A DNA stretch of 64,000 nt from Kiritimatiellia bacterium (GTDB lineage Bacteria; Verrucomicrobiota; Kiritimatiellia; CAIVKH01), in assembly GCA_025054615.1 (NCBI GenBank), contig JANWZO010000002.1, positions 109,786 through 173,785 of the forward strand. Direction: 5' to 3'. Positions 799 through 43,660 of this stretch are shown here, in pieces (within the stretch, counting starts at the first letter, position 1; each line of letters begins with the position of its first letter). The position numbers were made by a program, and so were the translations under genes. Below the pieces are notes generated by a model, which worked only from the letters and a program-made list of their open reading frames with translations, had not been told where the DNA came from and searched no databases.

Positions 799-847
799 TT
801 TCCATGCGATGGAAGTCCGCGTGCGGCATTTTTCCATCGCATGGAAT
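799..847. repeat. Two-unit TTTCCAT/ATGGAAA palindrome array (array 1)
   Basis: Two 17-nt palindromes are centred at about 807 and 839, 32 bp apart: TTTCCATGCGATGGAAG and TTTCCATCGCATGGAAT. They belong to the same family as the arrays at 26885-27057 and 42013-42091. They lie between two leftward genes, 5' of the MATE gene. Confidence 0.8.
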
Positions 848-26884: not shown

Positions 26885-27057
26885 TTTCCATCGCATGGAA
26901 AATTCGCGGAAAAATTTTCCATGCCATGGAAAATCGGCCAAAAAATTTTCCATGCCATGGAAAATTCGCGGGAAAAATTTCCATGCCATGGAAATTTCGC
27001 CGAAAAAATTTCCATCGTATGGAAACATGCATGAGGAGGCTTTCCATGCTCTGTAAA
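26885..27057. repeat. Six-unit palindrome array with 31-bp period (array 2)
   Basis: Six 17-nt units are centred at 26893, 26924, 26955, 26986, 27017 and 27049, so steps are 31, 31, 31, 31 and 32 bp. Units 1-5 are near-perfect palindromes TTTCCAT-NNN-ATGGAAA with centres CGC, GCC, GCC, GCC and CGT. Unit 6 is TTTCCATGCTCTGTAAA, with a degenerate right arm. The linkers are 13-15 nt and themselves similar, around TTCGCGG followed by AAAAA. Unit 6 contains the start codon of the DUF2961 gene. No cas gene is near, and the linkers are not unique spacers, so this is not a CRISPR array. Confidence 0.95.
27034..27039 (+). promoter_or_regulatory. Ribosome binding site that fixes the DUF2961 start
   Basis: GAGGAG at 27034-27039, in the linker between palindrome units 5 and 6, lies six bases before ATG 27046. 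It is the only strong Shine-Dalgarno site here and excludes the in-frame ATGs inside units 2-5 as starts. Confidence 0.8.
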
Positions 27058-29403
27058 TTTCGCGGAGTGGACCTGAGCTCGGCTGTGGTGCGTCTGGCGT
27101 TGGCGCTGGCGGCAGCCCTGTCGGTGTCGAGCTGCGGGCCGCGCGCGGCGGCCCCGGAGCGGCCCTGGCGCGAGTTCCTGGCCGATACGACCAATGTGCT
27201 CCGGCTTGCGCTGGGCGATGCAGGAGGAACGCGACTGATTTCCACCGCCGACCCGCGCGGCGGCAATGACGATTTCAATCAATTCGCCGGGCCGGGCACC
27301 GAACCGGGATGGGTCACCATCGCCGAGCTTAGAGGGCCGGGCGTCGTGCGGCGGTTTTGGACAACGGGAGCCGACCCGGGCCACCGGTATCGTTTTTATT
27401 TCGACGGTGAGAAAACGCCGCGGATCGAGGGCGATGTGGATTCCGTGTTCGGCGGGCAGTTCCCGTTCCAGCCTCCGCTGGCGATGTACTTGAATTTGTG
27501 CTGGTTCAGCTATGTGCCGCTGACCTATCAGCGTTCGCTCCGGATCGAGACGCAGGCGCCAAATACGCATCCGTTTTGGGGACCGCGCCGCATTTTCTTT
27601 CAACTCAATGTGGAAGACCTGCCTAAAGGGACGAGGGTGGAAACCTTCCCGCGCGCGCTTTCCGAGGAGGATCGCGCTGCGTGGGCGCAGGTGGCCGCTG
27701 AGTGGAGGCGCGCAGTGGAATGGCCGGCGCCGGATGGAGAGCTCACGTGGGTCCGCGTTGACCCGGGGCAGGAGGTGGAGGTGGCCGCGCTGCAGGGTCC
27801 GGCGCTGGCGCAGGAATGGTTTCTGGACATTCGACCGGCGGAGGATAGCGGGTGGACTCAGGCCGAGCGCGAGGCGCTTCTGCAGGACGCGGTATTGCGG
27901 ATTCGATACGACGGCCGCTCCGCGCCCAGCGTCGAGTCGCCGGTGGGCGACTTTTTTGGGTGCGCGTGGCGGCGTCGCGACTACGGAGCTTTGCTGATCG
28001 GCGCGGGGCCCGATGCCTTCCGCTGCGGATTTCCCCTGGCCTTTACGGGATCCGCCTCGATCAGCGTGTTCAACGGCGCGGACCGCGTGATCCGGGCCGG
28101 CTTCCGCGCCGAGCCGCAGCCGTTGCCGCCTGGCGTAAAGCCGCGATATTTCCATGCGGAGTGGCGGCGGACCGGCCCCGATGCCGGGCTGCCGCACACA
28201 ATCGCGTCGTTCGCCGGGTCAGGATTGTTCGCGGGGGCGTTTCTCGGCGTGACCGGCGCGCAGGGAACGCCGCAGGACGATTCCTGGTGGCTGCTGGAGG
28301 GGGACGAGTCGATTTTTGTGGATGATGAGCCTAGACCTTCCTGGCGCGGTACCGGGCTCGAAGATTACTTCAACGGCGGATGGTACTACCGCTGCGCGGC
28401 GTTTTCTGCGTTTCACGGGATCTTCGACCGCGCGCCGTTCCGCGTCGCGCAGTACCGGCATCAGTTGGTTGATCCGGTCCGCTTTTCGACGTCGTTGCGG
28501 ATGGTGATTGAGCGCGGCGACCAGAATGTCAGCCGCGCGTGGTTTCAGAGCGTGGCGTTTGCCTATCTTGACGAGCCCGCGGCCGTACAGCCGGTTCCAG
28601 CGCGGCGAGAGGACCGCCGCGCAGTCCCGAACCGGTTCGAATGGGCGAACCTGATGCTGCAGCTTACGGAATTGGAGCGGATGAACAACCTATCGCGCGC
28701 CCGCGCGCTGATCGCCGAATATTTGGAGCGGTTTCCGGACGCGCTGGACCGCGGGGTCTACGCGCTGCGCGATCTCGAGTATCGGCGCCTGATGGGCGAA
28801 TCGGTGGCGGACGATGTGTTGGGCCCGTTTCTTGCGGGCGAACAGGGCGAGGAAGCGAAGCGGCAGGCCGAGCTGCTGGCCTGGTTTTACGCCGCGACGA
28901 ACCGCGCGCTCGTCGGCATCAATGCCAACGCGCAGGCCCAGCTTTGGTTCAACGGGCGGCTCGTGGCGCGGACCGATCATCCGATCGCCTGGCAGGTGGC
29001 GGGGGTGGAGCTGACGGGCGACACGGCCGTGGTTTGCGTGGACGCGACGATGGTGCGCCAGGAGCCGTGGGTCCAGTTCGGGCTACGCACGCATACGGGC
29101 TTTACCGGATCTGGACTGGAAACCAAGCGTGCCCGGCGCGTGTCCGGCGCGTGGAACCAGTTGGAGGGGGATACGACGGCCTGGCAGCCGATGCTGAACC
29201 GCGACCTGCTCCGGGGCACGCCGGATGCGCCGTTTATCGGCAGTGTGCCGAACGCATTCGTGTGGTTCGGCAGCAAGACCTTCTCGGGACGCGCCGAGGA
29301 TTGGGGCTATCACAAGGGCAGGGGGTATTTCCGGCAGGACATTCGGCTGCCCGTCAACGGTCTGCCCCCAATGGCGCCGCTGTTGACCGGCCTGCCGGAA
29401 TGA
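27046..29403 (+). CDS. DUF2961 (GH172-like) lipoprotein
   Basis: About 785 residues from ATG 27046. The signal segment VVRLALALAAALSVSSC ends in a lipobox Cys, so the protein is probably anchored to the outer membrane or surface. The DUF2961 domain follows over about residues 60-400 (ISTADPRGGNDDFNQFAGPG, RRFWTTGADPGHRYRFYFDG, and GTGLEDYFNGGWYY with the acidic residues typical of the family). DUF2961 proteins were assigned to glycoside hydrolase family GH172, whose known members act on fructofuranosides or arabinofuranosides. The C-terminal 150 residues look like a beta-sandwich. Translation starts inside the last unit of palindrome array 2, so array and gene are physically linked. Confidence 0.85.
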   Translation: MLCKFRGVDLSSAVVRLALALAAALSVSSCGPRAAAPERPWREFLADTTNVLRLALGDAGGTRLISTADPRGGNDDFNQFAGPGTEPGWVTIAELRGPGVVRRFWTTGADPGHRYRFYFDGEKTPRIEGDVDSVFGGQFPFQPPLAMYLNLCWFSYVPLTYQRSLRIETQAPNTHPFWGPRRIFFQLNVEDLPKGTRVETFPRALSEEDRAAWAQVAAEWRRAVEWPAPDGELTWVRVDPGQEVEVAALQGPALAQEWFLDIRPAEDSGWTQAEREALLQDAVLRIRYDGRSAPSVESPVGDFFGCAWRRRDYGALLIGAGPDAFRCGFPLAFTGSASISVFNGADRVIRAGFRAEPQPLPPGVKPRYFHAEWRRTGPDAGLPHTIASFAGSGLFAGAFLGVTGAQGTPQDDSWWLLEGDESIFVDDEPRPSWRGTGLEDYFNGGWYYRCAAFSAFHGIFDRAPFRVAQYRHQLVDPVRFSTSLRMVIERGDQNVSRAWFQSVAFAYLDEPAAVQPVPARREDRRAVPNRFEWANLMLQLTELERMNNLSRARALIAEYLERFPDALDRGVYALRDLEYRRLMGESVADDVLGPFLAGEQGEEAKRQAELLAWFYAATNRALVGINANAQAQLWFNGRLVARTDHPIAWQVAGVELTGDTAVVCVDATMVRQEPWVQFGLRTHTGFTGSGLETKRARRVSGAWNQLEGDTTAWQPMLNRDLLRGTPDAPFIGSVPNAFVWFGSKTFSGRAEDWGYHKGRGYFRQDIRLPVNGLPPMAPLLTGLPE

Positions 29404-39384: not shown

Positions 39385-40119
39385 ATGTCCGCCTCGCGCG
39401 CCTACGCGCCCCTGCCCATCCGGATTGCCCTGGCGCTGGGACTTCTCCCGCTGTTGGCCGCACTACTTCACGCCGTAGGGTCCATTCCACCCCGGCCGCC
39501 CGATCTGTCGGCGGCGTTGATGGCGCGGATGCCCGAAAGCGGCGTCGAACACCCGTTGACGGCGGTTCTGCTCAATTTCCGCGGATATGACACGCTGCTG
39601 GAAATGACGGTGCTGTGGTTGGCGGCGCTGGGCGCCCTATCGCTCGCCTCCGGCCCCTCGGCCCGCCGCCGAAGGCCGCATGCCGCTCTGGTCGGTCTGA
39701 TCAGGATTTTGGCGCCCGCGCTCGTCATGAGCGCCGGCTACATCCTATGGGCGGGGGGCTTTCGCCCCGGTGGCGCCTTCCAGGCCGGATCGGTTCTTGG
39801 GGCCGGCCTCGTGCTCGCTTCGTTGAGCGGAATAGTTGCCGTCCAGCCGGGCGTGGCGTTGAGTGCGGGCCTCGCGCTGGGCACGACCGTGTTCGCCGGT
39901 GTGGCGGCATGGTCGTGGGCGTTGACCGGCGAGCTGCTGCATTTCCCGGCCGCTACGGACAAGTGGGCCATTCTCGCGATTGAGAGCGCGAGCGCGCTGT
40001 CAATCGCGTTGATCCTCCTCGCGCTTTTCGATCGCTTGACCGCCTCGGCGGACCCGGCCGAATCCAGCCGTGGCGGGGAGATGCCAAAGGCCATAGACGG
40101 GGAGGCGTCCGGACGATGA
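39385..40119 (+). CDS. mrpB: Fused MbhE-like and MrpB antiporter subunit
   Basis: About 244 residues from ATG 39385, which follows GGAGGAG. Residues about 8-95 match the MbhE-like end of MrpA, with HPLTAVLLNFRGYDTLLEMTVLWLAALGALSL. Residues about 105-225 match MrpB/MnhB: ALVMSAGYILWAGGFRPGGAFQAGSVLGAGLVLASLSG. So the last MrpA module is joined to subunit B. It overlaps mrpC by four bases. The membrane topology is about seven or eight segments. Confidence 0.88.
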   Translation: MSASRAYAPLPIRIALALGLLPLLAALLHAVGSIPPRPPDLSAALMARMPESGVEHPLTAVLLNFRGYDTLLEMTVLWLAALGALSLASGPSARRRRPHAALVGLIRILAPALVMSAGYILWAGGFRPGGAFQAGSVLGAGLVLASLSGIVAVQPGVALSAGLALGTTVFAGVAAWSWALTGELLHFPAATDKWAILAIESASALSIALILLALFDRLTASADPAESSRGGEMPKAIDGEASGR

Positions 40120-42012: not shown

Positions 42013-42091
42013 CTTCCATGCCATGGAAAGCCTGTGTGAAAATTTTACAGACCATGGAAAATTTTCCGGTCCTTTTTCCAGAGCATGGAAA
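42013..42091. repeat. Three-unit palindrome array with 31-bp period (array 3)
   Basis: The units are centred at 42021, 42052 and 42083, exactly 31 bp apart. Unit 1 is CTTCCATGCCATGGAAA. Unit 2 is TTTACAGACCATGGAAA and unit 3 TTTCCAGAGCATGGAAA. In units 2 and 3 the left arm is degenerate and reads CTGTAAA or CTGGAAA on the other strand. That is the same variant as the last unit of array 2. The array lies between the two mrpD-type genes, ending 51 bases before the second. Confidence 0.92.
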
Positions 42092-42142: not shown

Positions 42143-43660
42143 ATGACCTCCTTCGACTCCCTGCTGCCTCTGCTGGTGCTGATGACCTCATTGGTCACCG
42201 CAGTGATCATTTTCGCGCTCGGGGAGGACCGAATTCGCGCGCGTACGTTCGTGAACCTGCTGGGCGCGGTCGCGAAGCTGGCGCTCGTGGGCTACATGAT
42301 CTGGGGCTTATCGCAGGGCCGCCTGTTCGAAACGCGCTGGCCGTTCATGCCACAGCTCGATTTTGTGCTCCGCGCCGACAGCATGACGATCCTGTTTTCA
42401 ACGCTCTCCGCGGGGCTTTGGTTGCTGACGACGATTTACGCGATCGGCTACCTCGAAGGTTCGCCGAACCGGCGGCGTTTTTTCGGCTATTTTTCACTTT
42501 GCGTGACGTCGACGATGGGCATCTCGCTCGCCGGCAATCTGATCACGTTCTTCGTGTTCTATGAGCTGCTCACGCTGACGACCTACCCGCTGGTGGTGCA
42601 TCGCGGCACCGAGAAGGCCGTGCGGGCGGGATCGATGTATTTGCGGTATACCCTTGCCGGCAGCGCGTCGATGCTGGCGGGCATGCTGTGGCTCTATGTA
42701 ATCGCCGGACCGTTTGATTTTCGCGCCGCGGGCGTGCTCGCCCCGCTCGGGGACTCGCACAGGCCCCAACTAATCGCCATCTTTGCCCTACTGGTCGGCG
42801 GGCTCGGCGTCAAGGCGGCCATCGTTCCTCTGCACAAATGGTTGCCGACCGCGATGGTCGCGCCCGCGCCAGTCAGCGCGCTGCTCCATGCGGTGGCCGT
42901 CGTCAAGGCGGGCGCGTTCGGTATTGTGCGCGTGGTCTACGATGTCTATGGCGCGGAACTGGCGCGCGACCTCGGCGTGCTGACGCCACTCGCCGCCTTT
43001 GCGGCCATCACCATCCTCTATGGATCCCTCCGCGCGCTCGCGCAGGACGATTTCAAACGACGACTCGCCTTTTCCACGGTGAGCCAGGTTTCCTACATCA
43101 CGCTCGGGGTGAGCCTGTTCGGGCCGATGGCAACCATGGGCGGTCTTGTGCATCTCGTCCACCAGGGGATCATGAAAATTACGATGTTTTTCGCCGCGGG
43201 CAACGCGGCAGAGGCGCTGGGTGTACACAAGATTAGCGAGCTTGACGGGGTGGGGCGCCGTTTGCCCGGCACGATGGCTTCGTTCACGATTGCCGCCCTC
43301 GGCATGATCGGCGTGCCGCCGCTGGCGGGCTTTGTGAGTAAGTGGTACCTCGGCTGGGGAGCGGCCGAGGCCGGACAGTATTGGGCGCTCGGCGTTCTGG
43401 CCGCCAGCAGCCTTCTGAACGCGGCGTATTTCCTCCCCATCCTCTACCGCGCCTGGTTCAAGCCACAGCGGCACCCGTGGCCGCATGAGCATCCCCACTC
43501 TGGCCGACTCGAAATCTCGTGGTGGTTGCTATTCCCACCGGTGGCGACGGCGGCGCTCGTGCTGATCGCGGGACTTTTTGCCGGCCACCCCTTCAGCCCG
43601 TTGAGCTGGGTGCAGATCATCACCCGCCAGGAGTACCCGGCCCCCGGGCTGTCTGATTAG
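42143..43660 (+). CDS. Mrp antiporter NuoL/M/N-type subunit, second copy
   Basis: The 505-residue polytopic protein has FYELLTLTTYPLVVHRG (conserved Glu), GLGVKAAIVPLHKWLPTAMVAPAPVSALLHAVAVVKAGAFGI (two Lys and the HK pair), FSTVSQVSYI and HQGIMKITMFFAAGNAAE. These are the proton-channel residues of MrpD/MrpA/NuoL. It lacks the C-terminal MrpA modules, which are encoded separately upstream (39123-40119), so it may stand for the antiporter part of MrpA. ATG 42143 follows GCAGGAG. The gene lies between palindrome array 3 and the non-coding island at 43661-44796. Confidence 0.9.
   Translation: MTSFDSLLPLLVLMTSLVTAVIIFALGEDRIRARTFVNLLGAVAKLALVGYMIWGLSQGRLFETRWPFMPQLDFVLRADSMTILFSTLSAGLWLLTTIYAIGYLEGSPNRRRFFGYFSLCVTSTMGISLAGNLITFFVFYELLTLTTYPLVVHRGTEKAVRAGSMYLRYTLAGSASMLAGMLWLYVIAGPFDFRAAGVLAPLGDSHRPQLIAIFALLVGGLGVKAAIVPLHKWLPTAMVAPAPVSALLHAVAVVKAGAFGIVRVVYDVYGAELARDLGVLTPLAAFAAITILYGSLRALAQDDFKRRLAFSTVSQVSYITLGVSLFGPMATMGGLVHLVHQGIMKITMFFAAGNAAEALGVHKISELDGVGRRLPGTMASFTIAALGMIGVPPLAGFVSKWYLGWGAAEAGQYWALGVLAASSLLNAAYFLPILYRAWFKPQRHPWPHEHPHSGRLEISWWLLFPPVATAALVLIAGLFAGHPFSPLSWVQIITRQEYPAPGLSD

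Follow-up and report, generated by a model that had tools for sequence, protein, structure and literature searches.

Palindrome arrays in the window

The window, which is the whole 64,000-nt stretch of DNA that was analyzed, contains three arrays of a 17-bp palindrome, TTTCCA-N5-TGGAAA, with eleven units in total (Table 1). Sites with at most three mismatches numbered seven, compared to 0.04 expected in shuffles. The last unit of array 2 (27041-27057) reads TTTCCATGCTCTGTAAA, as the initial annotation had recorded, and its ATG at 27046-27048 is the start codon of the DUF2961 gene, so that the right arm of the unit falls in codons 2-4. Also borne out was the presence of a CTGKAAA arm in units 2 and 3 of array 3, where the minus strand reads TTTCCATGGTCTGTAAA at 42044-42060 and TTTCCATGCTCTGGAAA at 42075-42091. 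A short tandem repeat (39993-40047, period 27, 2.1 copies) lies within the Mrp-like gene cluster of the window.

Table 1 Palindrome arrays and adjoining features, in window coordinates
Feature	Position	Strand	Description
Array 1	799-847	.	Two units, 799-815 and 831-847, spacing 32; each one mismatch from TTTCCATNNNATGGAAA
Array 2, units 1-5	26885-27025	.	Exact TTTCCATNNNATGGAAA at 26885, 26916, 26947, 26978, 27009; spacing 31
AGGAGG ribosome-binding site	27034-27039	+	In the spacer between array 2 units 5 and 6; read directly
Array 2, unit 6	27041-27057	+	TTTCCAT-GCT-CTGTAAA, spacing 32; the DUF2961 start codon lies within it
DUF2961 protein gene (PF11175)	27046-29403	+	Downstream of array 2; lipoprotein-like leader (by eye)
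Array 3	42013-42091	.	Units at 42013, 42044, 42075; spacing 31, 31; variant is the left arm in units 2 (TTTACAG) and 3 (TTTCCAG)
Mrp/NADH-dehydrogenase-type antiporter subunit gene (PF00361)	42143-43660	+	Downstream of array 3

A second form of the arm across the genome

The genome to which the window belongs comprises 2.48 Mb in 51 contigs without order. Exact copies of TTTCCATNNNATGGAAA were found at 107 sites and the variant form, TTTCCATNNNCTGKAAA, at 33 sites, while the reversed control gave 0 in both cases. Arrays were read from 65 stretches around exact and variant sites as well as from the window, giving at least 68 arrays with at least 225 units and 2-8 units per array in this genome. 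The set consists of arrays that hold an exact or a CTGKAA site, and 100 of the 102 exact-site rows were used, so two may be missed. Frequencies of CTGKAA over all 68 arrays are inflated because the 33 such sites helped to choose the stretches, and counts were therefore also made on the 46 arrays with at least one exact unit, a subset found without using the variant. Within the arm, C as the first and T as the fourth base co-occur far beyond chance, both over all arrays (p = 8e-28) and in the 46-array subset (p = 2e-9), indicating that the CTGKAA arm acts as a real second half-site form and is not the product of random decay. One arm carries the variant in 48 units, and both arms carry it in 1 unit.

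Helical spacing of the units

Weak units in the array reading were accepted at fixed offsets only, and the spacing is therefore argued from a count of TTTCCA-N5-TGGAAA sites in which up to one mismatch was allowed and to which no distance rule was applied. All 120 neighbors within 140 bp in this count lie at 16 (9), 17 (7), 22 (1), 31 (53), 32 (39), 47 (2), or 48 bp (9), and the mean of the 31- and 32-bp spacings is 31.45 bp, or 10.5 bp per turn at three turns. The neighbor distances in relatives were 31 (32), 32 (26), 22 (1), and 33 bp (1). We take these spacings as half or whole turns of the helix and, as such, as the strongest sign of cooperative binding by a putative protein. Two-turn steps of 22 bp, rare elsewhere, are contained in the arrays of two genomes, G087 and G101 (L140:2982-3200, L142, L143).

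Variant arms at array ends and at the half-turn junction

The initial annotation had proposed that the units nearest the gene share the variant arm and, as a check, had asked whether this arm is always gene-proximal. Within the window, the variant is the right arm in array 2, toward the gene, while in array 3 it is the left arm, away from the plus-strand gene at 42143. Genome-wide, in gaps between genes of the same direction and with frequencies inflated as described above, variant units accounted for 18 of the 49 units at the proximal end, 14 of the 49 at the distal end, and 6 of the 63 in between, with no significant difference between proximal and distal (p = 0.52), and the arm pointed toward the gene in 21 cases and away from it in 16. 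Variant arms unrelated to the gene-proximal end, which had been set beforehand as the refuting outcome, are what this count showed. Variant units in these arrays are instead enriched at the ends compared to the inside (p = 0.0006), and the 46-array subset gave 5 of 31 proximal, 5 of 31 distal, and 0 of 51 internal units. The variant is a mark of array ends and not of the gene side.

The further claim that the arrays have a polarity, unlike a random repeat, stood in part, as the polarity is real, with variant arms facing the half-turn junction, but its direction is not set by the gene. For arrays that have a single half-turn junction (16/17 bp), each of the 21 CTGKAA arms is oriented toward this junction, with the variant on the right in all units left of the junction (9/9) and on the left in all units right of it (12/12), and in the 46-array subset the result is 10/10 (left 5/5, right 5/5). 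Under a looser arm definition (C1 or T4), 28 of 30 face the junction, the remaining two being units left of the junction that carry the variant on the far side. All eight junction-free arrays with at least two CTGKAA units keep them on one side. Spacers are more alike within an array (7.0 of 14 bases identical) than between arrays (4.3), which makes tandem duplication possible in part; it could explain some of the one-sidedness and regularity, but not the mirror arrangement about the junction.

Placement of the arrays and their neighboring genes

Genes were called with a simple hexamer gene finder, the calls being weaker in relatives (76% coding). In this genome, 229 of 5502 array bases (4%) lie in predicted genes, compared to 87% of all genome bases. 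Gaps of at least 100 bp that contain arrays were 43 tandem, 9 convergent, and 10 divergent, while those without arrays were 46, 8, and 29, respectively, indicating that divergent gaps are avoided in this genome (10/62 vs 29/83, p = 0.014). This avoidance was not seen in the relatives (14/49 vs 13/64, p = 0.38), in which gaps with arrays were 28 tandem, 7 convergent, and 14 divergent and those without were 42, 9, and 13. The arrays are intergenic and without promoter preference. The preference for promoter-bearing (divergent) gaps that would be expected of a classical repressor operator regulon was not seen, such gaps holding fewer arrays here and showing no difference in the relatives. A preference for 3′ ends was not significant in this genome, with arrays nearer the upstream stop in 33 of 49 cases (Wilcoxon p = 0.08).

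The proteins encoded beside arrays are mixed housekeeping proteins, including RuvA, RuvB, DNA ligase, phosphoglucose isomerase, citrate synthase, dihydrouridine synthase, and the Mrp subunit. No common theme was found among the 50 flanking proteins scanned against Pfam, of about 136 flanks, and a regulon of shared targets was rejected on this ground. No neighbor family recurred beside arrays in more than two of 18 genome groups. An array sits between the genes of RuvA and RuvB in this genome, and 6 of the 28 other genomes read (families f1, f22, f4, and f21; two of 30 gave no true RuvB) have one immediately upstream of ruvB, compared to a chance rate estimated at 5-10% from array density with shared descent ignored. 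This recurrence hints at a gene-specific function in at least one place. At the ruvB loci (L045:3025-3196, L170, L172, L175, L176, L177, L186), the array lies upstream though the preceding gene differs.

Distribution and lineage-specific inner bases

Phased pairs, as defined by a wider pair pattern, are present in 79 of 288 Kiritimatiellia genomes, with up to 589 pairs in a genome and 0 in the control, and whole families of the class had no such pairs among the same 288 genomes. The exact T-type site is narrower in range and rare beyond a few Kiritimatiellia, as 21 of 288 phylum genomes have any and five have six or more. The named matches were Kiritimatiellae bins and uncultured-bacterium bins. 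The arrays are a feature of the class Kiritimatiellia, in many but not all of its genomes.

Across lineages, TTTCC/GGAAA is constant and the next inner bases vary by genome. In one genus, position 7 is T or C in G239 (60 arms of 30 units, no A), A only in G253 (38 units) and G323 (23 units), and A in 91% of arms in G303 (39 units). An orthologous gap in this genus, with flanks about 70% identical, holds seven units in G239 (T/C), five in G303 (A), and none in G253. The retention of an array in this gap, with inner bases that follow those found elsewhere in each genome, may reflect co-evolution with one putative DNA-binding protein. The orthologous-gap loci concerned are L090:2839-3042 and L144:3186-3327, the third genome (L145) being without an array. 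For a stretch of G012 with three arrays, the loci read from three genomes of the same genus showed a remnant next to an orthologous flank in the case of the third array alone. Most arrays tested are not conserved in position even within a genus, indicating high turnover. In one array of the bin-1020 genome (L005:3484-3596), inner bases of the T type and of the A type occur together, which looks like a meeting of two specificities.

Proposed role of the arrays

On balance, we favor the reading that the palindrome at this locus is one unit of chromosome-wide intergenic arrays that serve as sites for a putative phase-dependent, cooperative DNA-binding protein. Each unit would bind a protein dimer. 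Dimers separated by three turns would share the same side of the double helix and touch one another, and a 16/17-bp junction would place a further dimer on the other side. As an alternative half-site, the CTGKAA arm may direct the complex toward the junction. The putative binder probably acts chromosome-wide, and the complexes would most likely not serve as operators for the adjacent gene but as platforms for chromosome structuring or silencing. A wider proposal, which we offer tentatively and regard as possible rather than probable, is that Kiritimatiellia have their own chromosome-wide packaging or addressing system, consisting of phased arrays with strong arms outward and CTGKAA arms junction-ward, in a code that is rewritten by lineage and co-evolves with one putative DNA-binding protein.

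Operator clusters of one global Lrp/AsnC-like regulator, each controlling the adjacent gene or operon, are a rather doubtful alternative. Lrp/AsnC (FFRP) proteins are described as cooperative dimers that can wrap DNA and whose site clusters have a centre-to-centre spacing of two or three turns (PMC2995911; BarR, PMC10201364). The arrays resemble such sites in being clusters of short palindromes with spacings of 22, 31, and 32 bp, to which the 16/17-bp spacing is added. In hand-picked sets of 30 array-rich (at least 25 pairs) and 30 array-poor genomes (0 or 1 pair), a match to AsnC_trans_reg was found in 30/30 and 24/30, respectively, and the Lrp/AsnC protein of array-poor G279 and G081, the two members read (L258, L259) of family f12, which is without arrays, lacks the DNA-binding part. 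The recurrence of arrays upstream of ruvB is also in favor of such a regulator. However, a closely similar full Lrp is carried by array-poor genomes such as G071, G038, and G171, and a cognate Lrp that tracks array presence was rejected because of the matches in array-poor genomes and the closely similar HTH in array-free G071 and G171. Nor does the helix sequence of Lrp covary with the inner base, in a comparison for which position-7 letters came from the genome-by-genome reading of inner bases or from units near ruvB or lrp and five genomes had none, and most arrays lie away from lrp. Known Lrp/AsnC clusters serve particular promoters, whereas the arrays here lack a regulon theme, include nine in convergent gaps, and, where tested, are mostly not position-conserved within a genus. 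Tests of presence, autoregulation, and covariation did not single Lrp out, and it is possible, but not supported, as the binder.

The arrays could also be repeats of the REP/BIME type, whose spread or maintenance would depend on a RAYT (Y1) transposase and whose palindromes would be by-products, a reading that we consider improbable. REP/BIME elements are described as extragenic many-copy palindromes that also occur in a Verrucomicrobia genome (PMC3733652). The arrays are likewise extragenic, palindromic, many-copy, and lineage-specific in sequence, and Y1_Tnp matches were found in 52 of 60 genomes, but these comprise 23 of the 30 array-poor genomes as well as 29 of the 30 array-rich ones. There is no match in array-rich G148 and a single weak one in the genome of the window, compared to 17 in array-poor G183 and 14 in array-poor G038, so a RAYT-dependent presence was rejected. 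The phased spacing also differs from REP/BIME, in which helical quantization is not expected, and no common GTAG/CGTC tag, the defining mark of REPs in that work, was seen by eye at the foot of the palindrome in the 68 arrays. When the flanks of these arrays were compared with one another, a single pair of 47 bp was all they had in common, and a larger mobile element was also rejected on this result. Less probable still are RNA hairpins, terminators or processing sites, transcribed from the gaps. A unit has the potential to form a hairpin with a 7-bp stem and a 3-nt loop, and arrays here often follow gene ends, but there is no RNA reason for a spacing quantized in half turns, TTTCC/GGAAA is fixed across lineages though a stem would tolerate compensated changes, no Rfam family was found in the window, and arrays also occupy divergent gaps. 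Just as little credence can be given to operator arrays in which a modified half-site at the proximal end sets a polarity toward the gene downstream, the reading of the initial annotation, since array 2 alone of the window fits it and array 3 points the opposite way; terminal units do carry the variant more often than internal ones, but gene-distal ends carry it as often as gene-proximal ends, and the genome-wide count refutes a gene-ward polarity.

Phased arrays bound by a putative cooperative protein across the chromosome can be compared with two other known systems. NrdR boxes are two 16-bp palindromes with a 15-16 bp spacer, or 31-32 bp from start to start, and are bound best at integer helix turns (PMC12051234). 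The same 31/32-bp repeat is present here with a 17-bp palindrome and a 14-15 bp spacer. Unlike NrdR boxes, which occur in pairs, or up to four, upstream of ribonucleotide reductase operons, the arrays have 2-8 units and lie by unrelated genes, and the 50 flanking proteins that were scanned, out of about 136, included no ribonucleotide reductase. The NrdR consensus probably also differs from the array unit. For Noc, about 70 palindromic sites scattered round the chromosome nucleate large complexes (PMC4331003). The roughly 70 arrays found here are similar to the sites of Noc, and also of SlmA, in being scattered palindromes that are not tied to a regulon. Depletion near the replication terminus is a further trait expected of sites of this type. 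The Noc site sequence as usually given has no 5-bp gap between half-sites, and to our knowledge 31/32-bp phased multi-unit arrays are not known for Noc sites.

No prior description of these arrays was found among the results listed by full-text searches on Kiritimatiellia or Verrucomicrobia palindromes or repeats, or among the titles listed by a broader search. If the arrays are bound as proposed, they would provide a natural series of one site in dozens to hundreds of copies per genome, with the spacing fixed and the inner bases varying between close relatives. It would then be possible to test directly how a global DNA-binding protein and all of its sites co-evolve, and the arrays would give a first handle on chromosome organization in a class known mostly from metagenomes.

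Arrays on viral contigs

In a viral collection, pieces of three contigs carry arrays. Ten ORFs on the array-bearing contigs included a terminase, a Mu-like protein, and DUF5681, and no DNA-binding candidate was found among them. The contig with the terminase and Mu-like genes carries a six-unit array (L101:2785-2947) with spacings of 31, 31, 22, 31, and 31 bp.
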